Under the pieces are notes generated by a model. The model did not search any database. It was not told where the DNA came from and saw only the letters and a list, made by a program, of their open reading frames with translations. This document shows positions 285 to 18,004 of a DNA stretch of 20,447 nt, piece after piece; position 1 is the first letter of the stretch; each line of letters opens with the position of its first letter. Made by a program: the position numbers and the translations under genes. Source of the stretch: a virus. The stretch spans positions 1 through 20,447 of the IMG/VR virus record IMGVR_UViG_3300032213_000860; one strand, given 5' to 3'.

Positions 285-917
285 ATGAGCTATACCATGA
301 CCTACGACAGTCTGCTCGTAGATGTGCGCCGTTATCTTGAGCGTGGTTTCACCCAAGAAAGCGACCAGATCGTCTACGACCAACTGCCTCGGTTGATCAC
401 ATTGGGCGAACGCAGAATTGCGCGAGAGCTTAAAATTATGGGGTTCATCCGAGCGGTGAGTACCCCTTTATCCGTTGGCGTGGCTGTCTATTTGAAGCCT
501 GACCGATGGCGCGATACGATCAGCATGACTGTCAATGGATCGCCTATCTTTTCTAGAGCATACGAGTATTGTCGCAGTTACTGGCCTAACGAAGCCCAGA
601 CCGCCGCCCCTCAGTTCTATGCTGACTACGATTACCAAAACTGGTTGATCACCCCAACACCTTCTACGGTGCAGACTCTTGAAGTTCTGTACTACGAGCA
701 ACCCGCCCTTTTGGGTGATGACTTACAAACCAATTGGCTTACTGAATACGCCCCTGATGTGTTGCTTTATGCGACCTTGCTAGAGGCAACGCCGTTTCTT
801 AAAAAGGACGAGCGCATTCAGACTTGGCAAGCCATGTATGACCGTGCGGCGCAGGCGCTCAATGGCGAAGACTTGAAGCGCATCATGGATCGCACAGCAA
901 CTAGGAGTGAAGCGTAA
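285..917 (+). CDS. Head-tail adaptor-like protein (SU10 adaptor-like)
   Basis: A 210-aa protein. The N-terminal helical part contains LITLGERRIARELKIMGF (about residues 37-54). A central beta-rich part with many Trp and Tyr follows (YLKPDRWRDTISM, then YADYDYQNWLITPTPS). A C-terminal helical part follows (TEYAPDVLLYATLLEATPFLKKDERIQTW). This arrangement resembles the small adaptor proteins of podoviruses such as phage SU10, which sit under the portal ring and join head to tail. Position as first gene of the tail/ejection run fits. Start at 285 has GGAG seven bases upstream; a second Met four codons later is an alternative start. It overlaps the next gene by one base (TAATG). The family call rests on remembered similarity, so it is moderately sure. 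Confidence 0.6.
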   Translation: MSYTMTYDSLLVDVRRYLERGFTQESDQIVYDQLPRLITLGERRIARELKIMGFIRAVSTPLSVGVAVYLKPDRWRDTISMTVNGSPIFSRAYEYCRSYWPNEAQTAAPQFYADYDYQNWLITPTPSTVQTLEVLYYEQPALLGDDLQTNWLTEYAPDVLLYATLLEATPFLKKDERIQTWQAMYDRAAQALNGEDLKRIMDRTATRSEA

Positions 918-2122
918 TGCCTATCTATACAGATGTCTTTGGTGGAGCAAACATCTACCCAAGCGAGATCAGCTACAGCGCCATAACGCTGACGACTACG
1001 GATGTGACGCTAAGTTGGCCCGAGGAAACCTCGACTAACACTAACTTAGCAACCCGCATCATTGATGTGACCGCTACTAATGCAGGCAGGTCAATCTTAT
1101 TGCCAGATGCAAAAAAGAGTGGCGTTGGTAACACAATCCTGTTTAACAACCAAGGTGCGCAAACTTTCCTTGTTAAAGATGCTGGTGGTACGCAAGTAGC
1201 GTCTATTGCCGCTGGAACTGTTTATCAGATTTATTTAACTAGCAACACCACAACAAACGGCTTGTGGGAATCATTGCAGTTTGGCGCTACGGTATCCACG
1301 GCTAATGCTTCTGCCCTTGCGGGTACTGGCATTGTGGCTGTTGGCACATTGTTGTCACAGTCTGTTCCTATTACGCAGTTCAACACAAACTACACCGCAG
1401 GCGATTCAGACCGCGCCAAGATGTATTTGTGGACAGGAACAGGCTCAGGAACTTTGACACTGCCAAGCGCCGCTACAGTGGGCAATAATTGGTTCATGTA
1501 CTTGCGTAACTCAGGTGGTGGTCAAGTTGTTCTGACCCCTTCTGGCGTTAACACAATTGATGGTTTGGCGACAAAAGCCTACCAGCCTACTGAGTCTTCT
1601 GTGATCATCAGCGATGGCTCAAACTTCTACACATTAGGATTTGGTCAGGCTTCTGTTTTTGTGTTTGACTACACAGTGATCAGCATTGCTGGAACTGGAA
1701 CATACACACTGACTGGCTCAGAACTCAACCGTATTGTGTACAAGTTTACAGGCTTGCTGACTGGAAACCGAATTGTTATTGTCCCTGCAACTGTTCAGCA
1801 GTATTGGATTGACAATGCCACGACTGGTGCTTACACGCTGACTGTTAAGACTTCCGCTGGAGCTGGACTTGCTGTTGGTCAAGGCACTCGAGGCATTTAT
1901 TACTGCGATGGCAGTGATGTGATTGACGCTGATACAACGACAGCAAGCTATCCAATCACAATTGCACAAGGTGGCACAGGAGCTACTACAGCAGGTGGTG
2001 CGCTGATTAACCTTGGTGGTACTTCAGTTGGTATTTCTGTTTTTACAGCGGCTACTCAACAAGCGGCATGGACTGCTTTGGGTGTTGCCCCTGCTGGCGT
2101 AGTTAATGGCGGGACTTACTGA
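917..2122 (+). CDS. Beta-rich tail fibre-like structural protein
   Basis: A 401-aa protein rich in Thr, Gly, Ala and Ser, with three successive beta-rich segments (about residues 45-123, 150-240 and 245-345). Each has the pattern of a Leu-Pro near its start, an aromatic or Asn-Gly turn, and a final '...DGxxxY/W' strand; examples are LTLPSAATVGNNWFMYLRN and VIISDGSNFYTLGFG. The C-terminal stretch ITIAQGGTGATTAGGALINL (about 348-367) is a motif widely seen in phage tail fibres and other virion surface proteins. The tandem domain layout suggests a surface appendage or fibre attachment protein. The receptor or partner cannot be told. Both ends overlap neighbours by one base (TAATG and TGATG), indicating translational coupling. 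Confidence 0.6.
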   Translation: MPIYTDVFGGANIYPSEISYSAITLTTTDVTLSWPEETSTNTNLATRIIDVTATNAGRSILLPDAKKSGVGNTILFNNQGAQTFLVKDAGGTQVASIAAGTVYQIYLTSNTTTNGLWESLQFGATVSTANASALAGTGIVAVGTLLSQSVPITQFNTNYTAGDSDRAKMYLWTGTGSGTLTLPSAATVGNNWFMYLRNSGGGQVVLTPSGVNTIDGLATKAYQPTESSVIISDGSNFYTLGFGQASVFVFDYTVISIAGTGTYTLTGSELNRIVYKFTGLLTGNRIVIVPATVQQYWIDNATTGAYTLTVKTSAGAGLAVGQGTRGIYYCDGSDVIDADTTTASYPITIAQGGTGATTAGGALINLGGTSVGISVFTAATQQAAWTALGVAPAGVVNGGTY

Positions 2123-3957
2123 TGCCAGAATCCACAATAGTCCTGAAATCTCTTGCTGGTATCAAGCGAGATGGTACTAGGTACGATGGTGATTTTTATG
2201 TTGACGGACAGTGGGTCAGGTTTCAGCGTGGCTTGCCTAGAAAAATTGCTGGGTATCGCTCAATCAATAAATACCTGACAGAGATTTCTCGAGGCTTTAA
2301 CAGTTTTACGCAACAACAATTACAGTATTGCCATTCAGCAGGCGCATCTAAGATTGAGCGTTTTACAATTGATTCAACTACAAACAGTTCAGTTATCAGC
2401 AACCGAACTCCTGTAGCTGTTAGCGCAACTGGAACAGTTACTTTGACTGGTGGTGGGGCTGGATCAGTTAACAGCGTCACAGTCAACGGCGTAACAATCA
2501 CATCAGGCGCTGTTGCGTTTTCGGTTGATTTGTCAACGACTGCAACTGCTTTAGCGGCAAACATTACCGCTTTTGTATCTACGCCAAACTATTCTGCTGT
2601 TGCTGTTGGCGCGGTGATTACCATTACAGCCTCAACTGCTGGGCAAGCTACTAACGGGTTTGTTGTCGTAGCAAACACCACGGTAATTACAACCACAGTA
2701 ACTAACATGGCTGGTGGTTTAAATGCTTTGGTTAGCTCTGCTTACAACCAGTGGATGTTTCAAACAGCGTATGACGCATCAACCACATACAACTCGATCA
2801 TTGCGCATGTAGCGCCTAATTTGCAGTGCGTGTGTAACGACACTGGTGGTCAGATTTTCTATGGCGATGTGCTTGGAACTGCCCCTTTAATAGAAATTCC
2901 ACTGCCCGCAGGTGCTAATGCAACTGGTGGAATTGTGATGCTGTTCCCCTACCTGTTTTACTTTGGTACGGCTGGTATTGTGGGCTGGTCTGTTGCTGGT
3001 GACTTTAATGATCTAAGTGGCTTAGGCTCAGGCATAGCGCGTGTATGGGGTCAGAAGATTATCAAGGGCATGCCACTGCGTGCAGGCTCTGGATCAGCGC
3101 CAGCAGGACTGTTCTGGGCTTATGACGCTGTGATCCGTGTTAATTTTACAGGTGGCACAACCGTATTCCAGTTTGACACCATTGCAACAGACACCTCCAT
3201 CATGTCTCCTGATTGCGTGGTGGATTACGATGGCGTGTTCTTCTGGTGTGGTGTTGACCGCTTCTTGATGTTCAATGGTGTGGTTCGTGAAGTACCTAAC
3301 CAGATGAACTTGAACTACTTCTTTGACAATGTAAACCCAAGCCATCGCGCTAAAGTGTTTGCATTTAAAGTTCCTCACTTTGGTGAAATTTGGTGGTGTT
3401 ATCCAAGAGGTGACGCAACTGAATGTACGCACGCCATTATTTACAATGTGCGAGAGAACTCTTGGTATGACACAGAACTGCCTGCATCTGGTCGCGCATC
3501 TGGTGGGTACAACAATGGTTTTGCCGCACCTTTGCTGACAGACTGCATTCCAACAACCAGTGGTTATCGTGTGTGGATTCATGAGCAAGGGGTTGACGCT
3601 GTTGAGGGTCAATCAACATTGCCCATTCAGTCTTACTTTGAGACAGCAGACTTGTCCTCGTTGCCACAAGGCAAAAACGAGTATCTGCGGATCACTGAGA
3701 TTGAGCCTGACTTTATCCAGAGCGGCCCCATGACCGTGCAAGTCACAGGTCGTGCTAACGCTAGAGCGCCTGAAATATTCAGTAGTCTGTTCTCATTCCC
3801 TGAGACAGCGTCCGAGCCTTACCAACAGATTGTGATGCTTAAAGAACAGCGCCGTGAGTTGCGTGTGCGCTTTGAATCTAACGCTGTGGGTGGAAATTAT
3901 CAGATGGGTCAGATCATTGGACACATTGATACTGGCGACAGGACGGTGCTTGGATGA
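2122..3957 (+). CDS. Large tail/nozzle-like structural protein with inserted beta-domain
   Basis: A 611-aa protein. The N-terminal stretch with VDGQWVRFQRGLPRKIAGYR (about residues 27-46) resembles the start of podovirus tail-nozzle or packaged-DNA-stabilising proteins, in which the chain states the site, then forms repeated beta-propeller-like strands. The rest is rich in Trp, Tyr and Phe beta strands (FWAYDAVIRVNFTGG; FFWCGVDRFLMFNGVVREVP; FGEIWWCYPRGDATE), typical of that fold. Residues about 96-203 differ: Thr, Val and Ala dominate, with pattern VTLTGGGAGSVNSVTVNGV, and the stretch looks like an inserted immunoglobulin-like or similar beta-domain. Position after the adaptor supports a tail tube or nozzle role. 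It could instead be a P22 gp10-like head-closure protein. The stop overlaps the next start (ATGA). Confidence 0.55.
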   Translation: MPESTIVLKSLAGIKRDGTRYDGDFYVDGQWVRFQRGLPRKIAGYRSINKYLTEISRGFNSFTQQQLQYCHSAGASKIERFTIDSTTNSSVISNRTPVAVSATGTVTLTGGGAGSVNSVTVNGVTITSGAVAFSVDLSTTATALAANITAFVSTPNYSAVAVGAVITITASTAGQATNGFVVVANTTVITTTVTNMAGGLNALVSSAYNQWMFQTAYDASTTYNSIIAHVAPNLQCVCNDTGGQIFYGDVLGTAPLIEIPLPAGANATGGIVMLFPYLFYFGTAGIVGWSVAGDFNDLSGLGSGIARVWGQKIIKGMPLRAGSGSAPAGLFWAYDAVIRVNFTGGTTVFQFDTIATDTSIMSPDCVVDYDGVFFWCGVDRFLMFNGVVREVPNQMNLNYFFDNVNPSHRAKVFAFKVPHFGEIWWCYPRGDATECTHAIIYNVRENSWYDTELPASGRASGGYNNGFAAPLLTDCIPTTSGYRVWIHEQGVDAVEGQSTLPIQSYFETADLSSLPQGKNEYLRITEIEPDFIQSGPMTVQVTGRANARAPEIFSSLFSFPETASEPYQQIVMLKEQRRELRVRFESNAVGGNYQMGQIIGHIDTGDRTVLG

Positions 3958-4193: not shown

Positions 4194-5993
4194 ATGGATA
4201 AGCAACAGATTCTTGAAATTGCAAAACGCGACCCACGGTTTTCTAAAGCGATTTTGACGCTTGAGAACCAAATTGGGGAAATGCCCATCACAAGCAAACA
4301 GCTTGATGAATTGGTGCAATTGCTTGAGTTTGCACTTAACAACCCTGACAAGTATCCTGAAATCATTGCGTCCGCAGTTAAAGATGACATGCTTGAAAAG
4401 GACGACTTGCCAGAGCAGTTTGATCCTGTGGTGATCATTTCCTTGCTAGTTCTGCTGTATGGCATGCAAGAGCGCCTAAAGCAAAAAGGTTACGCAAGGG
4501 GTGGTTTGGCGGCGATGGGCAGGCATGGCGACACGATGCTGGCGCACATCAATCCACGCGAGGCAGAGATGCTTAGGCGCATGGGTGGCGCAGGAACAAT
4601 AAACCCGCGCACGGGCTACCCTGAATACTTTAACTTGAAAAAGTTTTTGGCGGTGGCGTTGCCGATTGCGTTGGACTTCATAGTCCCCGGGGCGGGGACG
4701 GCAATCGGCTCCGCAATGGGCTTCTCAGGCACTGCCGCCACCATAGCTGGCGGCGCTGTCATCGGTGGTGGTACTGCCGCCTTGACTGGTGGTGATCCCC
4801 TCAAAGGCGCTTTGCTAGGTGGTTTGGGTGGTGGTGCTGGCGACTACTTTGGCTCTGCCGCTAACAGCGCCTTCGACATGGGTTTAGGCACAACTGGTCA
4901 AAATCTACTTGGTAACTCTTTAGTTGGTGGCGTAGCTGGCGCGGCATCTGGTCAAGGCTTTTTGAAGGGCGCGGCTTCAGGCGCTTTGGGAACCTATGCT
5001 GGTCAAGCACTTGGTGATGCAACTGGCAACGCCTCAATAGCCGCTGGTGGTAAACAGTTTGGCAATATGATTACTGCTGGCTATGACCCCAAATCAGCCA
5101 TTATTGGTGGTGGTTTGGCAGGTCTTGCTACAAGCATGGCTCGTCCTGCTCAACAAACTAGCAACCTTGGAATTAAGCCATCAGACGCTGTACTTGAAGG
5201 ATTAAAAATGCCTAAAGGTGGCGACTACTCTTACAGTGGCGTGCCAGAGGCAGGTGTTGGTACAACTAATTTCATGACAGGCTCTGTTGGGTATAAAGGC
5301 CCAGAGAACTTTGCTGTTGACTATTCATTGACAAATCCAGCCGCTCCTGTTGCTCCCCAAGGTTATGGCGCTCAAGATACAGGTGGTGGTTTAAACGCCC
5401 CAACACAATCCCCACTTGGTCAGCTTAAAACAGGCGCTCAAGCAGGAACTTCTAGTCCATTCACAATGAAGAACGCTTTGATTGGCGCTACTTTGTTAGG
5501 CAGTTTGAGCAGTGCTCCTCCTGATGTTAAGCAGGCTGTCAGCACAATGTCACCTGAAAAGAAAGAATACTTTAACCGCCCATCTATTCAGTGGGACTGG
5601 AATCGCATGCAACGCGATGCCAACAATGCGGGCTTAGGTTTAAGTCAATATATGGCGCAGGCATGGCCTCAAATCACTGGCGGTGCTTATAATATGCCTG
5701 TCCAGCGTCCTGCGGGTTTAGCACGAGGAGGAGCGCTTTCACAGATCGCGTACATGGCTCGTGGATCAGGCTCAGGTCGAGATGACACCATCGATGCCAA
5801 ACTCTCTGATGGTGAATATGTGATGGATGCTGAAACAGTTGCACTTTTAGGGGATGGTTCTACAAAAGCTGGAGCCGAGCGCCTTGACGCTATGCGTAGC
5901 CAATTGCGCAGACAAAAAGGTCGTGAGCTTGCCAAAGGCAAATTCAGCCCTAATGCTAAATCACCTCTTGCATACCTGAAGGGAGCTATGTAA
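4194..5993 (+). CDS. Internal virion / DNA-ejection-type protein 1 (Gly/Ala-rich)
   Basis: A 599-aa protein with GGAG upstream of its ATG. Residues 1-100 form a helical, charged region. A short motif (about 110-146, GDTMLAHINPREAEMLRRMG then INPRTGYPEYF) follows. Then comes a long Gly/Ala-rich hydrophobic zone (about 150-310, many GxxxG steps), able to insert in or cross a membrane. The C terminus (about 530-556) holds DDTIDAKLSDGEYVMDAETV followed by a basic tail; this motif recurs in phage internal virion or tail proteins. I infer a protein ejected with the DNA to span the envelope. Part of the gene (4650-4760) has an unusual codon skew switch around CCCCGGGG at 4685-4692. Ejection is not proven by sequence alone. 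Confidence 0.55.
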   Translation: MDKQQILEIAKRDPRFSKAILTLENQIGEMPITSKQLDELVQLLEFALNNPDKYPEIIASAVKDDMLEKDDLPEQFDPVVIISLLVLLYGMQERLKQKGYARGGLAAMGRHGDTMLAHINPREAEMLRRMGGAGTINPRTGYPEYFNLKKFLAVALPIALDFIVPGAGTAIGSAMGFSGTAATIAGGAVIGGGTAALTGGDPLKGALLGGLGGGAGDYFGSAANSAFDMGLGTTGQNLLGNSLVGGVAGAASGQGFLKGAASGALGTYAGQALGDATGNASIAAGGKQFGNMITAGYDPKSAIIGGGLAGLATSMARPAQQTSNLGIKPSDAVLEGLKMPKGGDYSYSGVPEAGVGTTNFMTGSVGYKGPENFAVDYSLTNPAAPVAPQGYGAQDTGGGLNAPTQSPLGQLKTGAQAGTSSPFTMKNALIGATLLGSLSSAPPDVKQAVSTMSPEKKEYFNRPSIQWDWNRMQRDANNAGLGLSQYMAQAWPQITGGAYNMPVQRPAGLARGGALSQIAYMARGSGSGRDDTIDAKLSDGEYVMDAETVALLGDGSTKAGAERLDAMRSQLRRQKGRELAKGKFSPNAKSPLAYLKGAM

Positions 5994-7537
5994 TGGCTAG
6001 TCTTTTTCAAGGTTCGCCACAAACGGCGACTTCATACACAACCTCTTCTACTGAGACACCAAAGTGGATGCAGGATGCAATCTACAATCAAGTTCAATGG
6101 GCTACCAATGTAGCTAACACACCTTACCAGCCTTACAGTTTACCAACTGTAGCTGAGTTATCGCCACTCCAACAGCAAGCCTACAAGCAGGTACAAGACC
6201 AGCAAGGCGCGTGGAAGGGTGACATGAATGCCGCCACTTCAGGCATGAAAGGCTTCTCTACTAAGGGAACTGCTGGTGATCTGCAAACAGCGCAAAACCA
6301 ATATTTGCGCCAAGGCATGGTTGATCAGAACTTAAACGCAGGTCAAGGTTATTTTAATAAAGCAGGTCAGATGGATATGGTGGGTGCGGCAAACCCATTG
6401 TTAAACAGAGCCTCCTCAATGGACATCGTGGGTTCGGCTCAACCATACTTGTCTCAAGCTGGTCAGCAAAACATCATGGGTGCGGCTAGTCCGTACATGC
6501 AACAATCTGGTCAAACAACTGCTGAAGCGTTGTCAGACAGGGCTTTGAACGCCGCTAACCCTTACCTGACTGCCGCCTCTCAAAGCGCCGCTTCAGGCAT
6601 TGGTCAGTACACTAACCCATATCAGCAAAGCGTCATGGATGTGATTGCTAAACAAGGTGCTCGTAATTTGAGCGAGAACTTGTTGCCTGCTGTGTCTGAC
6701 CAGTTTATTAAAGCAGGTCAGTTTGGTGGAACTCGCATGGGTGAGTTTGGTTCACGCGCATTGCGTGATACACAAGAGTCTATCCTTAACCAGCAAGCTC
6801 AAGCGGCTCAGCAAGGTTATGGTCAGGCTTTGTCAGCATCTCAGGCAGACCTTGCGCGTCAAGCTCAGCTTGCAGGCACTGTGGGCAGTATCTCTGGTGC
6901 AGACTTGTCTCGTGTTTTGCAGGGCGCTGGTCAGTACCAAAACCTTGCCCAGACTGCTGGCTCATTGACTGGTCAACAGCAACAAAACCTGACAAACCTT
7001 GGTCAAACCACTGGTCAATTGACAGGTCAGCAGATGCAGAACTTGGCAAACATTGGTCAGACAACTGGTCAATTGACAGGTCAACAAATGCAGAACATGG
7101 CAAGTTTGGGTCAAGCTCAAACTTCTGCTGGACAAGCTCAACAACAGTTTGGATTGTCTTCGGCTCAAGCGGCTCAAGCGGCTCAGGCTCAGGACTATCA
7201 ACGCCAGATGTCAGCGTTGCAAAATGTGGCTGGCATGGCTCAACAAGCCCAAGGCATGGGTTACGCAGATACAGCGGCTCTGGAGGCGGCTGGCGCGGCT
7301 CAGCAAGGACAGATGCAAAAGCAGTTGACTGCGGCAGAACAGCAGTACATCAACCAGCAAAATTATCCTAAGCAACAGCTTGATTGGTTGAACACTCAGG
7401 TTCGTGGCATGGCTCCAATCACACCACAGATAACCACTAATCAAGGTACAACGACAGGTGCTACATATTCGCCATCAGCGTTGCAACAATTAGCGACAGG
7501 CTTGTACACATACAAGGGCTTAAATGCTCTTAGCTAA
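5993..7537 (+). CDS. Internal virion-type protein 2 (Gln/Ala-rich, tandem repeats)
   Basis: A 514-aa protein starting in a TAATG overlap with the gene before. The N terminus (WMQDAIYNQVQWATNVANTP, then YQPYSLPTVAELSPLQQQAY) resembles the start of other phage tail-tip or internal proteins. The centre has two sets of short tandem repeats: three 16-residue units near residues 127-174 (pattern D/N-[IM]-[VM]-G-[AS]-A-x-P) and three 18-residue units near residues 325-378 (LTGQQMQNLANIGQTTGQ). The rest is Gln/Ala-rich helix, probably coiled coil. Very low hydrophobicity and high Gln content suggest a soluble, extended structural protein. Its place among the ejection-type proteins suggests the same complex. 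Function is inferred, family not named. Confidence 0.55.
   Translation: MASLFQGSPQTATSYTTSSTETPKWMQDAIYNQVQWATNVANTPYQPYSLPTVAELSPLQQQAYKQVQDQQGAWKGDMNAATSGMKGFSTKGTAGDLQTAQNQYLRQGMVDQNLNAGQGYFNKAGQMDMVGAANPLLNRASSMDIVGSAQPYLSQAGQQNIMGAASPYMQQSGQTTAEALSDRALNAANPYLTAASQSAASGIGQYTNPYQQSVMDVIAKQGARNLSENLLPAVSDQFIKAGQFGGTRMGEFGSRALRDTQESILNQQAQAAQQGYGQALSASQADLARQAQLAGTVGSISGADLSRVLQGAGQYQNLAQTAGSLTGQQQQNLTNLGQTTGQLTGQQMQNLANIGQTTGQLTGQQMQNMASLGQAQTSAGQAQQQFGLSSAQAAQAAQAQDYQRQMSALQNVAGMAQQAQGMGYADTAALEAAGAAQQGQMQKQLTAAEQQYINQQNYPKQQLDWLNTQVRGMAPITPQITTNQGTTTGATYSPSALQQLATGLYTYKGLNALS
6371..6514 (+). repeat. Three tandem 16-residue (48-nt) repeats in internal virion-type protein 2
   Basis: Units begin at 6371, 6419 and 6467. 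The translated units are MDMVGAANPLLNRASS, MDIVGSAQPYLSQAGQ and QNIMGAASPYMQQSGQ. Protein pattern is kept while bases differ. A partly similar stretch (ALNAANPYLTAAS) follows downstream, so the array may once have been longer. Confidence 0.7.
6965..7126 (+). repeat. Three tandem 18-residue (54-nt) Gln-rich repeats
   Basis: Units start at 6965, 7019 and 7073; translated consensus LTGQQMQNLANIGQTTGQ. Units 1 and 2 are close at base level, suggesting recent duplication or recombination, unlike the cysteine repeats of the next gene. The third unit diverges in its last residues. Confidence 0.8.
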
Positions 7538-7550
7538 TTAAGGAAGCATC

Positions 7551-10500
7551 ATGGGATTTGAACTTGATCGGTTGATGAAGCAGTTTGGGGTGGCGACTCC
7601 GAGTTTGAATTACTCAGGGGCGGGGGTTCCCGTTGACCCCGGGGCGCGTCCCGTAGCCACCTCCACCCTCACTGGTGAAGCGCTCACTTCCGCTCAAGCT
7701 AACTACGACAACTTGTTAGCCAAGTACAACCTCGACAAAGTAAACTACCCTGCTGATCAAGCCCTGTATAACACTTACAGGAATGAGTACCAGAACCGCA
7801 TGCTTGGCACGCCTCAGTACATGCAGTCCCAATTCCAAACAGGCAATGAGCCTAAATCTGCTGGCTATCAATGGGCAACCCGTCCTGATGTCAACGCTGA
7901 TACAGGCTCTGGCATGGGCGTTAAGCAGTTCAATCAGAACATTCAGAACTGGGCTTCATCAAACCCAACAGCTAACACTGCCGCAATCAATGCGTATGCG
8001 GACAGGTATGGACTCAACGCGCAGGACATCTACAACGCCACTAACAACCGTTGGGGCAACACTTTGCAAGTTCCTAAGTATGGGACTGGTGATGTTGGAG
8101 TAGTAACGCCGTTGCCACTTGTGTGTGGCACAGGTATGAAGCCAAACGCCGCAGGTACTGCTTGTATTCCTGATACTGGTGGGGGGATAGTTTGCGGCCC
8201 CGGGATGACGCTCAACACCGCAGGCACTGCGTGCGTCCCAATTACTACAAGTGGTTTGGTTTGCGGTGTAGGCATGAAACCTAACGCCGATGGAACAATT
8301 TGTATTCCTGACATTGCTAATACTTTAACTTGCGGCGTTGGTATGAAACCTAACGCCGCAGGCACAGCCTGCATTCCTGACACAGTTGACACCCTAAAGT
8401 GCGAAGCTGGATTTCAACCTAACGCCGCTGGCACTGCATGCGTACCAATCCCAGATGACACCCTAAAATGTGAAGCAGGATTTCAGCCCAATGCAGACGG
8501 TACAGCCTGCGTGCCGATTCCTGACGATACTTTAAAGTGTGGGGTTGGTTTTCAACCAAACGCTGATGGCACTGCATGCGTTCCTATCCCTGACGACACG
8601 CTCAAATGTGAGGCTGGTTTCCAGCCTAACGCAGATGGAACCGCATGTGTTCCCATTCCTGATGACACACTAAAGTGCGGCGCTGGAATGATGCCAAATG
8701 CTGACGGTACGGCGTGTATCCCGATCCCTGATGACACTCTTAAATGTGGCGCTGGAATGATGCCTAACGCAGATGGTACGGCGTGTATTCCTATTCCTGA
8801 TGATACGCTGAAATGCGGCGTTGGAATGATGCCGAACGCCGCAGGTACAGCATGTATCCCGATTGTGGATGACACGCTGACTTGTGGCGCAGGCATGACG
8901 CTGAACGCCGCAGGCACAGCTTGCATCCCAATCATTGACACACCAGCCGCATGTGGCGCTGGAATGGTTCGCAACGCTGAAGGTGTTTGCGTACCAATTG
9001 TTGCTGATACGCTAACTTGCGGTGTAGGCATGACTCCTAATGCCGCTGGAACGGCTTGCGTTCCTATTGGTGACACCACTACAACCACTGGTTTGACTTG
9101 CGGCGTTGGCATGAAACCTAATGCTGAAGGAACCGCCTGCGTTGCTGATTCAACCCTTACCACGCTGAGCACCATCATTGGTGGAAACAATAATGATGTT
9201 ATTCAAGATGATGGAACAACCGCCAGCATCTTGAGCACAATTGCAGGATTAAACGGAACTTCCACTGTAACTGGGGCAAAAGGTAACGATGTCATTCAAG
9301 ACGATGGCACAACTGAGAGCATTTTAAATACGATTGCCGCACTGAATGGAACCACTGGAACTACTGGCACTGTTGGAACCACTGGCAATACTACAGCCGC
9401 TGACGATGGCACAACTGATAGCATCTTAAATACCATTTCTACATTAAATGGTCTTACTGGAGATTCTTCTGCAACCAGTGGAACTACTGGAAATAACGCA
9501 GTGACTGGTGCTACTTCAGTTAATAGCACTACTGGTTTAGATACTTCTGGTAATGGTGCAGGGACAGGTCTTACTTCTGACCTTGGCGCTGTAACTGATC
9601 TTGGAAATGGTTTATTTGCTGTTGACAATGGAAATGGCACGCAAAGCATCTTTACAGATGATGGTTCAGCAATGGGTTCAACTGGTGGTACTACCCCAGA
9701 AGCGTGGCAAGGTAACGAAGTTAAAATTGGCGTACCAAATGTTAGCATTACAGGCGGCAACGATACTATTGGTGGAATTAACGAGCTTTATACATACCCA
9801 GAACTTGCTGGCTATAGCAGTGGTTATGGTGGCGGCATTGGCGGTGGCGGCGGTGGAAAATATTACGACGATTTCAGTTCGTCGGCTTATGCAAAAGGTG
9901 GTCGTGTGAAAACTCATTACAACGATGGTGGTCGCGTGAAAACCCATTTCCAAACTGGTGGTGCTAACCAAGCAACTGACATTGATCAGATGGCTGAGAA
10001 CTATGGTGTATCACCACAGCCTGACATGATGAGCTACCAAGGCTCTAAACTGTTCCCAATGCAAGGTCAGGCTCCTGCACCCGTTTCTAACCAAATGACT
10101 AGACGCGATGCTTACCCACCGACACCTGAATCGCCAATGGACGCTCGTGCTTCTCAGTTGGACGCATTGCTCCAAAGATATGCAGGTAATACAACTGACT
10201 ACAGTGCTGAACTTGCAGAAGCGCGTAAAACCGCCAATACAGAGTCAATGGCGTTTCAAAAAATGATTCAAGATGCTATGAAGGCGGCTCCTGATGAAGC
10301 GCCTTCCAAAGCTGAGATGTATTTCCGCTTAGCTTCTGCGTTTGGTTCTCCTACCAAGACTGGTCACTTTGCTGAGTCACTTGGCAATGTGAACAAAGAG
10401 CTTGCAACATACAGCCAACAAGAGCGCGAGGCTAAGAAGGCTCAGCGTGCGCTTCAGTTGCAGATGGGTCTTAAAGGTCAAGAGATGCGCATGGCATCTG

Positions 10501-11264
10501 CTAAGGACGACCTCACAACACTGCGCACATTGGCGGCTGAGGGCATGAAAGACAAGCGTGCAATTACGGCTGAGGTGATCAAGGACTTTATCAAGTCTGG
10601 TGAGCCTGAGTCTGCGGCAGGTAAGCAGGCGAGGGACGAGGGGTTGAGGCCCGGGTCTAAGGAGTTTCAAGCCCGTGTCAGCGAAATCGCCCAAACTAGC
10701 GTCGACGCTAAGTTAGCCCAAGTCACTGCAACTTTGGCTGGCATGAGTGTCCAGCAAGCTAACTTAACTTTGGCGCAGAACAAGTTCCTAAATCAACAAG
10801 CTCAACAAGCCAAGCTCAGTCCACAAGAGATGAAGTTGAAGTCAGAGACTGAAGACATCCTAACAAGCACTGATCAAGCCATGGCTGATTTGAAGCGTGC
10901 TTACCAGTTGAACCCTAACACCTTTGACACTTCTTTAGGCGACATTGCTCAGCGTAAATTGCTCGAGGCGGCAGGCTCTAAAGACCCCAAAGTGATAGCT
11001 ACTCGTGAGCAAACTAACTTGCTAAGCAAGTCTGCTGTTGGTAAGCTCAAGACTGCATTTGGTGGTAACCCAACTGAGGGTGAACGCAAAATTCTGCTTG
11101 ACTTGGAAGGCATCGATTCTAAGAGCAAAGAAGAGCGTGCAATCATTATGCGCAACTCTTATACTGCACTCAAGAATCGTCGTGAGCGCGAACAAAAGCG
11201 CTTGAACGATATTAAACAAGGTCTGTACCGCGATACATCTGCCCCAACAGGAGAGCTTGAATAA
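7551..11264 (+). CDS. Giant internal virion-type protein with 15 Cys-pair repeats
   Basis: A 1237-aa protein; AAGGAAG precedes its ATG. Order of parts: (1) residues 1-190, mixed helical, rich in Asn, Tyr and Gln; (2) residues 192-530, fifteen 23-residue repeats, each with two Cys (C-x2-G-x3-N-x2-G-T-x-C-[IV]-P); (3) residues about 549-634, three repeats of a DDGTT-x-SIL-x-TI pattern; (4) a Gly/Ser/Thr-rich linker; (5) residues about 781-805, AKGGRVKTHYNDGGRVKTHF, a basic stretch; (6) residues about 855-1237, mostly charged helix, likely coiled coil, including GNPTEGERKILLDLEGIDSK. Such a helical C-terminal part occurs in phage DNA-ejection proteins. Position between other large low-complexity genes fits an ejection complex. 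A cytoplasmically made protein with so many Cys pairs is odd. A tail spike or receptor-binding role is the alternative. The next gene overlaps its stop (TAATG). Confidence 0.55.
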   Translation: MGFELDRLMKQFGVATPSLNYSGAGVPVDPGARPVATSTLTGEALTSAQANYDNLLAKYNLDKVNYPADQALYNTYRNEYQNRMLGTPQYMQSQFQTGNEPKSAGYQWATRPDVNADTGSGMGVKQFNQNIQNWASSNPTANTAAINAYADRYGLNAQDIYNATNNRWGNTLQVPKYGTGDVGVVTPLPLVCGTGMKPNAAGTACIPDTGGGIVCGPGMTLNTAGTACVPITTSGLVCGVGMKPNADGTICIPDIANTLTCGVGMKPNAAGTACIPDTVDTLKCEAGFQPNAAGTACVPIPDDTLKCEAGFQPNADGTACVPIPDDTLKCGVGFQPNADGTACVPIPDDTLKCEAGFQPNADGTACVPIPDDTLKCGAGMMPNADGTACIPIPDDTLKCGAGMMPNADGTACIPIPDDTLKCGVGMMPNAAGTACIPIVDDTLTCGAGMTLNAAGTACIPIIDTPAACGAGMVRNAEGVCVPIVADTLTCGVGMTPNAAGTACVPIGDTTTTTGLTCGVGMKPNAEGTACVADSTLTTLSTIIGGNNNDVIQDDGTTASILSTIAGLNGTSTVTGAKGNDVIQDDGTTESILNTIAALNGTTGTTGTVGTTGNTTAADDGTTDSILNTISTLNGLTGDSSATSGTTGNNAVTGATSVNSTTGLDTSGNGAGTGLTSDLGAVTDLGNGLFAVDNGNGTQSIFTDDGSAMGSTGGTTPEAWQGNEVKIGVPNVSITGGNDTIGGINELYTYPELAGYSSGYGGGIGGGGGGKYYDDFSSSAYAKGGRVKTHYNDGGRVKTHFQTGGANQATDIDQMAENYGVSPQPDMMSYQGSKLFPMQGQAPAPVSNQMTRRDAYPPTPESPMDARASQLDALLQRYAGNTTDYSAELAEARKTANTESMAFQKMIQDAMKAAPDEAPSKAEMYFRLASAFGSPTKTGHFAESLGNVNKELATYSQQEREAKKAQRALQLQMGLKGQEMRMASAKDDLTTLRTLAAEGMKDKRAITAEVIKDFIKSGEPESAAGKQARDEGLRPGSKEFQARVSEIAQTSVDAKLAQVTATLAGMSVQQANLTLAQNKFLNQQAQQAKLSPQEMKLKSETEDILTSTDQAMADLKRAYQLNPNTFDTSLGDIAQRKLLEAAGSKDPKVIATREQTNLLSKSAVGKLKTAFGGNPTEGERKILLDLEGIDSKSKEERAIIMRNSYTALKNRREREQKRLNDIKQGLYRDTSAPTGELE
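8124..9140 (+). repeat. Fifteen tandem 23-residue (about 69-nt) Cys-pair repeats
   Basis: First Cys codon at 8124, last Cys codon ends at 9140. Units share C-x2-G-x3-N-x2-G-T-x-C-[IV]-P followed by an acidic linker, often IPDDTLK. Thirteen units have the same Cys spacing; unit 13 lacks one residue and unit 14 has a longer linker. Units with identical protein sequence differ in most codons (see findings), so this is not recent slippage. It is coding sequence, not CRISPR. Confidence 0.9.
9195..9452 (+). repeat. Three degenerate repeats with DDGTT-x-SIL core
   Basis: Units carry the core DVIQDDGTTASILSTIAGLN, or close variants, at about 9195, 9288 and 9390. The third starts with TTAADDGTTDSIL. 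The units are separated by Gly/Thr-rich linkers of different length. The DxxxDDG pattern could bind a metal, which is only a suggestion. Confidence 0.6.
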
Positions 11265-13309
11265 TGGCTGATTTAACACTTTCCGATTTGGTTCTTGGCA
11301 AGAAGGCTCCTGCTAACCGAGTGGTTGGTGGTGCTCGTGCCATGCTTGGTCAAGGACTAGGCATGGGTTGGGGTGATGAGGGTGAGGCTTGGCTTCGCTC
11401 CAAACTAGGAGAAGGTAAGTATGAAGACTTGGTATCAAAAATTCGTGACGAGTATGCGCAGTATTCTTCAGAGAATCCGTACACGGCTGGGGCGCTAGAG
11501 TTTGGTGGGGGGATGGCTCCTGCGGTGGCGATGATGATGACCCCCGGGGGCCAGCCCGCCGCCGTAGCCCAAACTGGACGCGCCTCCGCTGGAATGCTCT
11601 CACGCCTCGCTCAAAGCCCCATGGCTCGTAGCGCCCTTGCTGGTGGCACAACTGGCGCTGTTGCTGGCGCTGGCACAGCCACTGAGGGCGAGCGTGGTGA
11701 AGGAGCTGGCGTAGGTGGTCTGATGGGCACTGGTTTAGGGATTGCTATTCCTGTTGCCATGCGCACTGGAAAAGGTGGCTACAACTGGCTCAAAGAGCGC
11801 TTGATGCCTACACCACAAGGCATTCAAGATCGCGCCTCACAGAAGATGCTAGACGCTTTGAGGCAGGCTCAATTGACACCACAGCAAATTGAGGCTGTGA
11901 TGAAGAAAGACGCAAGCATGCGTGTGCCCTCTACGGTAGCTAATGTAGACCCCGCGATGGTGGACTTGGCTGAGGCGGTGGCACAGCGTGTGGGTACGGG
12001 TCGCCAGCAGATTGCTAAGACGCTCAATGAGCAAAAACAGGGTATTCGTGAGAGGACTTATGGGCAGGTGAAGGCGGGCTTGAAGCCGGGGGACTACTAC
12101 GCCGACGAAGACCGCCTAGTCAAAGAACTCCGCGACTTCGCTGGCAAAGCCTACGACGATGCCTACAATGTTGGCAGTGTCAACGACCCCAAGATCATGA
12201 CCATCCTCGAGCAACCCGAAGTCAAGTCAGTCTATGACCTTGCCAGACAGATTGCTAGTGGCGAGGCAAACCTTGCCAAAGTTCGTGGTCAAGACCCAAG
12301 CAAGTTTAAGCTCGAGCCTTTGTACATTGCTGACGCAGAAGGAAACATCAAGATTTCCTCAATCCCTGATGTGCGCACCCTTGACTACATGAAACGCGCT
12401 ATGGATGCCATGATCAAGTCAGGCTATAGCTCCTCAGACGCAACTGTCAAAACCCAAGCTACCACTCTTAAAGGAATGCGTAATGAGTTGCGCGACCGAT
12501 TAAAGACCGTGGTTCCTGAGTACGACACAGCTTTAACTAAGTACGCTGGCGACATGGAAGTGATCGACGCTATGCAAGCTGGTATGAATAAATTCCGTGG
12601 CATGGATCACGAGGAAGTTGCCAAGCTCGTTAAAGGCATGTCTCCTTCTGAGAAAGAAGCGTTCCGCACTGGTGTAGCCCGTGACATCTATGGGCAGATC
12701 ATGAACCCATCTACTACGCGCAACTCTGCTCAAAACATTATTGGTTCGCCTGAGATGCAACAAAAGCTCATGCCTTTGTTTGACGATCCTGCACACTTTA
12801 ATTTGTTTAAAGCGGCGCTTGAGCGCGAGTCGCAGTTGTTTAACCAAGCTAACAGCATTTTGGCTAACTCAAGCACGGCTCGTCGCACCCAGATGAACAA
12901 AGAGTTTGAGGGTGACAACTCTATGGGTGAGGCTATCGGAAACGCCATCACAGGTGGTTTCTGGTCATCCCTGACTGGTTTGGCTTCCAAAGCCGCTAAG
13001 AGTTCCACAATGACTCAGGATACGGCTGACAAACTAGCAGGAATGCTGATGTCAAAAAATCCTTCTGAGGTTGCCGCAACTGTCAAAGTTTTGGAAGACT
13101 ACGCTAAGAAAGCCGCTCCTCGTGAGGCAAGGGCAACCAAGGCTGAATTAGGCACGACCATGGGCACAGCAAGTGCTGTATTCCCATCGCCTGACCCTAA
13201 AGAGAAAACCCCTGACATTGGCACTGACATTGGAACAATACCAGTTAATATCAAAGGCGCACCAGATATTGAATCTGACATTGAGGCAGATTTAGCTAAA
13301 ATGAAATAA
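11264..13309 (+). CDS. Internal virion / DNA-ejection-type protein 3
   Basis: A 681-aa protein whose ATG overlaps the preceding stop (TAATG). Residues about 75-165 form a Gly/Ala/Met-rich hydrophobic zone (GGGMAPAVAMMMTPGG, then GGTTGAVAGAGTATEG and VGGLMGTGLGIAIPVAM). The rest is long, charged and helical (residues about 175-620). The acidic C terminus (from about residue 640) has Thr/Ile-Asp repeats such as DIGTDIGTIPVN. The hydrophobic-then-helical plan resembles phage proteins ejected with DNA to form an envelope channel, such as P22 or T7 internal proteins, but I recognise no named family. Two codon-skew switches lie in it, at 11541-11550 and 12086-12092. The strong terminator 22 bases after its stop ends the module. 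Confidence 0.55.
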   Translation: MADLTLSDLVLGKKAPANRVVGGARAMLGQGLGMGWGDEGEAWLRSKLGEGKYEDLVSKIRDEYAQYSSENPYTAGALEFGGGMAPAVAMMMTPGGQPAAVAQTGRASAGMLSRLAQSPMARSALAGGTTGAVAGAGTATEGERGEGAGVGGLMGTGLGIAIPVAMRTGKGGYNWLKERLMPTPQGIQDRASQKMLDALRQAQLTPQQIEAVMKKDASMRVPSTVANVDPAMVDLAEAVAQRVGTGRQQIAKTLNEQKQGIRERTYGQVKAGLKPGDYYADEDRLVKELRDFAGKAYDDAYNVGSVNDPKIMTILEQPEVKSVYDLARQIASGEANLAKVRGQDPSKFKLEPLYIADAEGNIKISSIPDVRTLDYMKRAMDAMIKSGYSSSDATVKTQATTLKGMRNELRDRLKTVVPEYDTALTKYAGDMEVIDAMQAGMNKFRGMDHEEVAKLVKGMSPSEKEAFRTGVARDIYGQIMNPSTTRNSAQNIIGSPEMQQKLMPLFDDPAHFNLFKAALERESQLFNQANSILANSSTARRTQMNKEFEGDNSMGEAIGNAITGGFWSSLTGLASKAAKSSTMTQDTADKLAGMLMSKNPSEVAATVKVLEDYAKKAAPREARATKAELGTTMGTASAVFPSPDPKEKTPDIGTDIGTIPVNIKGAPDIESDIEADLAKMK

Positions 13310-16922: not shown

Positions 16923-17138
16923 TTAGGACTTTCCCTTATGTTGCTTTAATGCAACTCGCAGGTTTTTGACTTGGTTGTCACTCAGAGTGCCCCAGTAGAT
17001 CAGCTCGTGGCACATGTTCAGGACAAATTGATCTTTGCCCTTGTATGCTTCTAAGTCGTTGACCAGATCAGCATGCTGGTCTTGCCATTGCTCGACATCG
17101 ACGGAGTAATTATTGGTGGGTGTTTGTTCAATTTTCAT
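16923..17138 (-). CDS. 71-aa protein, function unknown
   Basis: Its start overlaps the stop of the glycosyltransferase-like gene (ATGA). It begins MKIEQTPTNNYSVDVEQWQD and has an acidic middle and basic C terminus (LRVALKQHKGKS). Its last codons (KGKS then TAA) lie at the place of the GGGAAA-x-CCTA block found upstream of the other cassettes. No family is recognised. It is the last gene of the eight-gene overlapping cluster. Confidence 0.6.
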   Translation of the reverse strand: MKIEQTPTNNYSVDVEQWQDQHADLVNDLEAYKGKDQFVLNMCHELIYWGTLSDNQVKNLRVALKQHKGKS

Positions 17139-18004
17139 TTTTGTATCTCTTGCAGTTTCATGCCGTATTCATTGATGCCTTCAGGGACTACCACGCCATA
17201 GCGCTTGACCAAGGTGTTGTGCTTGAACACGCTGTAGTCGACATGGTGATGCCAGCGGTTAAACCTCCAAACGACCTCAGCCACATCAGGGTGCAGGCGC
17301 TCGATCATTTGGGATTTGGGTAGGGTTCCCTCTTTGGAATAGAACTCGTCAGTGTTGCCGCCAGCCATGGTTTGTGTGGTGGCCTTCTCTTGCAGGAACG
17401 CATTGAACTGGATGGTGCAAAGGCCAGCTTTGAGCGCCCTGATGGACAGGTCAGTGTCTTCGTTGTAGCGACCCCTCCAGCGCATTGGGAGGCTGTTCTG
17501 GATGAGCAGGCAGGAGTAGATGCGGGTGTTCATTACGAAGGCTGGGAGAGGCTCCTTGGCCTTAGCAAAAAAGTCGTAGTTAAAGCCAGCAATGACGACA
17601 TTGGCGTAGCGGTCTACAAAGTCTTCAGCGGCCCTGAAAATAGTGCCAGAGGTGACCTTGACCATAAGGTTGCGGTTAAGCCTGTTGAACGAGGCAATGT
17701 TGTCGTCCATGACCCAGTGCCTAGCGTAGCCGAGGCTCATGGAGTGATCCCAGCAGAAGTTCCGTGCGGCACCGGGGCCTTTTCCTCGCGTGTTCCCCTC
17801 CTCGTCACAAGTGTCATAGTCCCTCAAATATTTTTTAGGCAACACCAGCACCTTGGCAGGATCAATCACTGCGGCGTACTCCTCGCGCTCGTGGGCCTCT
17901 ACAACGATGTAGTAGGGCACATTGATACGGTCGAGTGCCTTGCTAGTCAGGCGCGTCTTCCAGCGCCCTTTAGACACGATATAGATGGGGTACTTAGGAT
18001 TCAT
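17135..18004 (-). CDS. TET-associated-glycosyltransferase-like protein (GT-A type), predicted DNA-base glycosyltransferase
   Basis: A 289-aa protein. It begins with YPIYIVSKGRWKTRLTSKAL (residues 5-24), the typical entry of the GREB1/TET-associated glycosyltransferase group. The metal/nucleotide-sugar binding motif is seen as WVMDDN (D100, D101), and a second acidic motif as YNEDTDLSIRALKAG (E182, D183, D185). In phages this family is linked to sugar transfer onto hydroxymethylated bases; partners such as a TET dioxygenase or base-modifying synthase are not in this window. Its start lies in an 11-base overlap with the 80-aa gene. It could instead glycosylate another target. One codon-skew switch lies in it near 17771-17779. 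Confidence 0.75.
   Translation of the reverse strand: MNPKYPIYIVSKGRWKTRLTSKALDRINVPYYIVVEAHEREEYAAVIDPAKVLVLPKKYLRDYDTCDEEGNTRGKGPGAARNFCWDHSMSLGYARHWVMDDNIASFNRLNRNLMVKVTSGTIFRAAEDFVDRYANVVIAGFNYDFFAKAKEPLPAFVMNTRIYSCLLIQNSLPMRWRGRYNEDTDLSIRALKAGLCTIQFNAFLQEKATTQTMAGGNTDEFYSKEGTLPKSQMIERLHPDVAEVVWRFNRWHHHVDYSVFKHNTLVKRYGVVVPEGINEYGMKLQEIQK

Follow-up and report, generated by a model that had tools for sequence, protein, structure and literature searches.

In a 20,447-nucleotide stretch of viral DNA (hereafter, the window; IMG/VR record IMGVR_UViG_3300032213_000860), we found a gene whose product carries 15 tandem two-cysteine units and is likely to be one of the ejection (internal virion) proteins of a podovirus-like phage. 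Read directly from the sequence, this array is under selection, lies in a sharply bounded island whose contents change among relatives, sits in a gene cassette that otherwise avoids cysteine, and consists of a module that recurs in other phages. From this context we infer that the protein is present in the virion, that it is ejected, that its cysteine pairs form disulphides, and that their closure has a mechanical effect. We propose, as a reading with roughly even chances of being correct, that the array is a swappable spacer, which is reduced and flexible in the capsid and closes to disulphide hairpins in the oxidising periplasm.

An old array of fifteen two-cysteine units

The open reading frame at 7551-11264 (+) encodes a protein of 1237 residues with the following features:

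7551..11264, +: ORF carrying the array (P0001), probable ejection (internal virion) protein, from synteny with GB2A gp063 and the C-terminal profile
7551..8083, +: conserved N-terminal region, approximately residues 1-178, with 72-83% protein identity in nine relatives
7911..8057, +: helical-looking module of approximately 49 residues, N-I-x2-W-x3-NPxA...YG[IV]S..D[IV]..ATG
8084..9925, +: hypervariable island; alignment with relatives drops sharply at 8080-8087 and 9925-9927
8124..9140, +: array of 15 EGF-hairpin-like two-cysteine units, from unit positions and Pfam PF12662 (cEGF)
8124, 8193, 8262, 8331, 8400, 8469, 8538, 8607, 8676, 8745, 8814, 8883, 8952, 9018, 9099, +: unit starts
9207..9461, +: three DDGTT-x-SIL-x-TI-x2-LNG repeats (9207-9266, 9300-9359 and 9402-9461), present in relatives too
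9927..11261, +: conserved, all-helical, cysteine-free C-terminal domain, from 24 relatives and AlphaFold2

The array extends from the first cysteine codon, at 8124, to the end of the last, at 9140. An earlier note on this DNA had claimed fifteen two-cysteine repeats here, and its count and coordinates proved exact. The units begin at residues 192, 215, 238, 261, 284, 307, 330, 353, 376, 399, 422, 445, 468, 490 and 517, with a spacing of 23 residues apart from one interval of 22 and one of 27. The pattern C-x2-G-x3-N-x2-G-T-x-C was matched by 14 of the 15 units; unit 13 (CGAGMVRNAEGVC) is one residue shorter, and unit 15 ends in VA, as compared to [IV]P elsewhere. All 30 cysteines of the protein lie inside the array, which is acidic (33 D/E vs 12 K/R).

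None of 2000 composition-preserving shuffles contained a single match to the array pattern. When 14 units were compared, on average 7.2 of the 16 core codons showed synonymous and 4.1 non-synonymous differences; dS was saturated in 51 of the 91 unit pairs, and the mean dN was 0.18. Since synonymous sites are mostly saturated while the residues have been kept, the array is old and under selection. The shuffles and the saturated synonymous sites together rule out fresh slippage or a chance origin. ORFs antisense to the array were set aside as compositional.

The array protein lies in a probable ejection cassette

The neighboring genes on the same strand are:

285..917, +: adaptor protein of the SU10 adaptor family (Pfam PF24175, E 1.5e-26)
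2122..3957, +: phage stabilization (P22 gp10-like)/virion structural protein (phrog_3287, E 1.3e-29; relatives annotated 'phage stabilization protein')
4194..5993, +: cassette protein A, with a tape-measure-like C-terminal motif and no cysteine
5993..7537, +: cassette protein B, of a DNA ejection protein family, with no cysteine (phrog_4287, E 1.1e-5)
11264..13309, +: cassette protein D, the last structural gene, with no cysteine (phrog_5880, E 8e-63; syntenic with Pam5_13 and Rhizobium phage EVC28_015)

The gene order, which reads adaptor, fibre-like protein, stabilization protein, small ORF, A, B, array protein and D, is the same as that of gp069 to gp062 in Caulobacter phage GB2A. The homologue of cassette protein B in contig L027 also matched phrog_4287 (E 2.9e-11). 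A profile built from the C-terminal 385 residues of the array protein found relatives in 24 IMG/VR contigs, and it also matched the Pam5_12 protein of Pseudanabaena phage Pam5, a 'tail lysozyme' (E 8e-11), as well as EVC28_014 of a Rhizobium phage (E 1e-9) and GB2A gp063 (E 6e-4), the last of which is weak, yet syntenic. Pam5_12 additionally bears a Phage_lysozyme2 (peptidoglycan hydrolase) domain. Most relatives have approximately 430 residues, and a single branch has gained the long N-terminal part.

These results place the array gene in a P22-like ejection cassette, and its product is likely to be an internal virion protein that a podovirus-like phage ejects. Gene order and homology thereby back the claim that this is an internal virion-type gene among DNA-ejection genes, whereas receptor contact, also suggested previously, found no support, the domain relatives being internal helical proteins. 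The array protein resembles podovirus ejection proteins (P22 gp7/gp16/gp20; T7 gp14-16; SU10 gp20-24) in its place after adaptor and stabilization genes and in their helical, almost cysteine-free character, but it differs from them in having a swappable repeat island of approximately 610 residues with 15 two-cysteine units. A two-cysteine unit would be impossible in the T7 or P22 ejection proteins, because each contains 0-1 cysteine. Searches of Pfam and PHROGs gave no significant family match of the array ORF to the P22, T7 or SU10 ejection proteins, and a tblastn search of 50,697 phage records with the full-length protein gave no match at 1e-5.

AlphaFold2 modeled the C-terminal domain as helices only (pLDDT 65), and Foldseek returned generic helical matches for this model, none at E<=0.001. 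The module at 7911-8057 matched no Pfam or PHROGs family; one to three copies of it also occur in two other array-bearing protein families, giving at least three phage protein families that have it. Elsewhere in the window, a glycosyltransferase gene at 17135-18004 (-) matched phrog_842 (beta-glucosyl-HMC-alpha-glucosyltransferase, E 4e-54), which hints at DNA base modification.

The unit resembles the C-terminal hairpin of EGF domains

In a Pfam search, the array matched cEGF (PF12662) with an E value of 8.5e-15 and 54.7 bits, well over the cut-off of 26.6. Judged by its sequence, the unit corresponds to the hairpin that forms the C-terminal half of an EGF domain, C-x2-G-[FM]-x2-N-x2-G-T-x-C, and would carry that domain's single last disulphide. 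It keeps just the last two of the six EGF cysteines and is without the calcium-binding N-terminal signature; with two cysteines per 23-residue unit, the six-cysteine, three-disulphide EGF fold is absent from the array. The protein that carries the array also differs from EGF proteins in being a cassette protein of a phage, with no evident signal peptide. An AlphaFold2 model of the array showed one hairpin per unit at low confidence (pLDDT 60). The best Foldseek matches to this model were weak and mostly to disulphide-rich extracellular proteins (megalin, factor VII EGF, fibrillin), with none at E<=0.001, and phmmer against the PDB found nothing significant.

The earlier note had left the module type between an extracellular, disulphide-style unit and a metal-binding one. 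The cEGF score supports the former, a type of loop normally found in exported proteins. Metal binding is less likely, as the EGF turn residues are conserved and we found no CxxC, Cys/His tetrad or conserved histidine in the units. A zinc array was dropped as the main explanation for lack of a four-ligand Cys/His tetrad.

A search of PHROGs matched the array to phrog_3503 (head scaffolding protein; E 1.8e-22), over profile positions 36-54 of 101 only. This match arises because T4-like gp68 head scaffolding/prohead core proteins hold one near-identical copy of the motif, C.PGYKLN.TGT.C[VI]P[IM]. The gp68 proteins differ from the array protein in being basic, 90 residues long and single-copy for the motif, with a gene between those for portal and protease. 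Membership of the array protein in the gp68 family was rejected, as the motif alone aligns and the gene context differs. Single copies in gp68 were found in Delftia phage PhiW-14, Pseudomonas phage pf16 and many contigs (L088 3959-4231; L043, L045, L060, L065, L067 and others). T4-like gp68 acts within the cytoplasmic prohead, and the presence of the motif there indicates that it does not require oxidation.

The array lies in a hypervariable island

The earlier note had missed the island in which the array lies. Flanking DNA is 82-95% identical in relatives (approximately 71-77% in L036, where alignment restarts only at 10473), and the sole alignment inside the island was a 55-base match in L031. 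In place of the island sequence, L005 and L011/L033 carry RTX-like GGTGND repeats, and L004, L030 and L036 carry PDPVIPDP or Thr-Pro repeats, while L001 has other sequence despite 95% identical DNA alongside. One copy of the two-cysteine unit is present in L005 and in L031.

RTX repeats fold only in high calcium, after export. PF00353 (RTX) exceeded its cut-off in L033, L069 and L083, and RTX repeats were observed in phage cassette proteins (L005, L033, L069, L083), often beside two-cysteine repeats. In relatives, calcium-binding RTX repeats are found in the same island or in the same proteins, but the two-cysteine array differs from them in sequence and in trigger, and the window holds at most one weak RTX-like stretch.

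The two-cysteine module recurs in other phages

Homologues of cassette protein A also contain the two-cysteine module, with five loose copies in L027 (four by profile) and one each in L028, L029 and L055. Proteins of another cassette family, which have as many as 68 cysteines, carry it in L047, L048, L069 and L079. In 12 contigs, a module-bearing gene was found downstream of a homologue of the stabilization protein. The module, sometimes next to RTX repeats, therefore recurs in at least two other cassette proteins of other phages. The previous claim that no such array is known in internal virion proteins thus holds for published descriptions, of which we found none, but the module itself is present in ejection-cassette proteins of many uncultivated phages and as a single copy in T4-like gp68.

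A pattern scan found 46 stretches in viral contigs and 23 in the GTDB collection (257 billion bases). The 23 GTDB stretches were mostly in exported-looking, cysteine-rich proteins, with some chance matches, and a two-unit profile search gave no confirmed bacterial locus. Similar two-cysteine repeats were observed in ORF3 of Stenotrophomonas phage PSH1 (L114 1997-3382), a filamentous-phage pIII-like protein with an apparent signal peptide, and two copies of the unit in marine phage DUF4214 proteins with 14-18 cysteines (L042, L052, L057, L078).

Cysteine is avoided elsewhere in the cassette

Cassette proteins A, B and D and the non-array part of the array protein contain no cysteine in 2692 residues, where the rate in the phage's own non-structural genes predicts 37 (P 4e-17) and a lower rate of 0.57% predicts 15 (P 2e-7). 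Control proteins with known ejection, T7 gp14-16 and P22 gp7/gp20/gp16, contain one cysteine in 3570 residues, where 26 would be expected from the other T7 and P22 virion proteins (P 1e-10). Across relatives, protein D has 2 cysteines in 17,729 residues and the stabilization protein 279 in 24,546, counted in stop-to-stop frames that may take in a few residues upstream of the true start. With the cassette otherwise cysteine-free, cysteines are admitted here only as pairs within the two-cysteine motif.

Phage ctpbd312 (MW202545) departs from this avoidance: its homologues of A and B are rich in unpaired cysteines and contain CCCS runs. These homologues (L089 16059-17993 and 17994-19235) have approximately 36 and 33 cysteines and the run CSDCCSCCCSCCCSCCCSCCCSCCCCCACCCA. 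The annotation of one ctpbd312 cassette homologue reads 'coronavirus S2 glycoprotein', which is surely an error.

A spacer that may fold in the periplasm

In our proposal, a conserved N-terminal module and a helical C-terminal domain would flank a swappable spacer, consisting here of 15 EGF-hairpin-like units. In the reducing cytoplasm and the packed head, the units would be reduced and flexible, so that the chain could thread the narrow portal and tail channel. Upon reaching the oxidising periplasm, each cysteine pair would close a 12-residue beta-hairpin. Closure might then stiffen and shorten the segment, stop back-sliding, and lengthen or protect the trans-envelope conduit. The RTX-like repeats in the island of relatives may play an equivalent role, with calcium as the trigger. 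According to a review, the periplasm, in which ejection proteins assemble, is a harsh and oxidising place (PMC8954989); for crassviruses, partial unfolding of the cargo during passage through the tail has been proposed from the data (PMC10172136). Taken together, a narrow channel, an oxidising periplasm and RTX repeats in the same island favor a swappable spacer whose folding is triggered by its environment. Of the three roles for the array considered in the earlier note, disulphide folding after ejection is the best supported, closure itself being the inferred step.

Several observations suggest such a spacer, namely the cEGF score, the weak but EGF-rich fold matches, the GB2A gene order, the match of neighbor B and the kinship with Pam5_12. 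Cysteine avoidance, recurrence of the module in 12 contigs, RTX repeats in relatives, the exported-looking bacterial matches and the pIII-like repeats suggest it as well. Counting against it, the identical motif occurs once in gp68, a cytoplasmic prohead protein; the proline-rich or Thr-Pro islands of relatives have no folding trigger and would suit a plain spacer; ctpbd312 has unpaired cysteines; and the array model reached a pLDDT of only 60.

The island might instead be a flexible linker of variable length, in which any repeat serves and the cysteines are without redox role. This would fit the replacement of the island by proline, Thr-Pro or other repeats in relatives with 82-95% DNA identity, and a unit copy number that varies between 0, 1 and 15. 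However, the cysteine pairs and the turn Gly, Asn and Thr have been preserved despite saturated synonymous change, cysteine is avoided elsewhere across the cassette, and the module recurs in other cassette proteins, so we consider a neutral linker unlikely, though with a real chance of being correct. Sharp-edged replacement of one segment in syntenic genomes also resembles host-range loci, and the repeats could make contact with, or escape, a factor of the host periplasm or inner membrane, such as a protease, exclusion protein or entry receptor, and so set host specificity at DNA entry. EGF-like modules often bind proteins, and the acidity of the array would agree with such an arms race. Near-identical units would be unusual for a diversifying binding surface, however, and receptor-binding homology is absent, which makes this explanation improbable.

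Two further readings place the cysteines in other settings. Reduced cysteines of adjacent units might hold zinc or another metal in the head, aiding packing or DNA contact. The protein is made under reducing conditions, the motif is present in gp68, the T4-like head-core protein, and cassette proteins of ctpbd312 contain CCCS runs that could bind metal, all of which is consistent with this. However, the unit is without CxxC or a Cys/His tetrad, the residues it conserves belong to the hairpin turn of EGF, and its bacterial relatives are mostly within exported-looking proteins; we regard a metal array as the least probable reading. Scarcely more probable is that the protein belongs to the tail or the tape measure and is not ejected, the array being a surface or structural decoration, or its disulphides forming in the released virion outside the cell. 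Virions mostly exist in oxidising water, where disulphides could form after lysis, and the annotation of some relatives reads 'tail lysozyme' or tape measure. Against this, gene order and the phrog_4287 neighbor fit podovirus ejection cassettes, and the near-zero cysteine content matches the ejected proteins of T7 and P22, unlike their tail proteins.

Beyond the window, we suggest tentatively, as a possible but doubtful generalization of the triggered spacer, that podovirus ejection proteins carry exchangeable cassettes of triggered folding (oxidation hairpins or calcium RTX), which would stay unfolded in the tail, fold in the periplasm and serve as a ratchet or stiffener in DNA delivery. The cEGF hairpin module and ejection proteins as a class are already known. 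In the open-licence literature, we found no description of EGF-like, cysteine-rich or disulphide repeats in ejection or internal virion proteins, nor of a swappable island or the co-occurrence of two-cysteine and RTX repeats. Two features emerge from the analysis: an island within ejection proteins whose contents can be swapped, and a module that is widespread among aquatic phages and apparently undescribed. Podoviruses must pass large internal proteins through a narrow tail and rebuild them as a trans-envelope conduit, and for this compartment-specific folding triggers, if real, would offer a testable mechanism amenable to redox and calcium manipulation. Such triggers would also explain why the cassette avoids unpaired cysteines alongside its tolerance of paired-cysteine arrays. 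The near-zero cysteine content of ejected proteins in both T7 (L116) and P22 (L117) may be a general rule worth wide testing.
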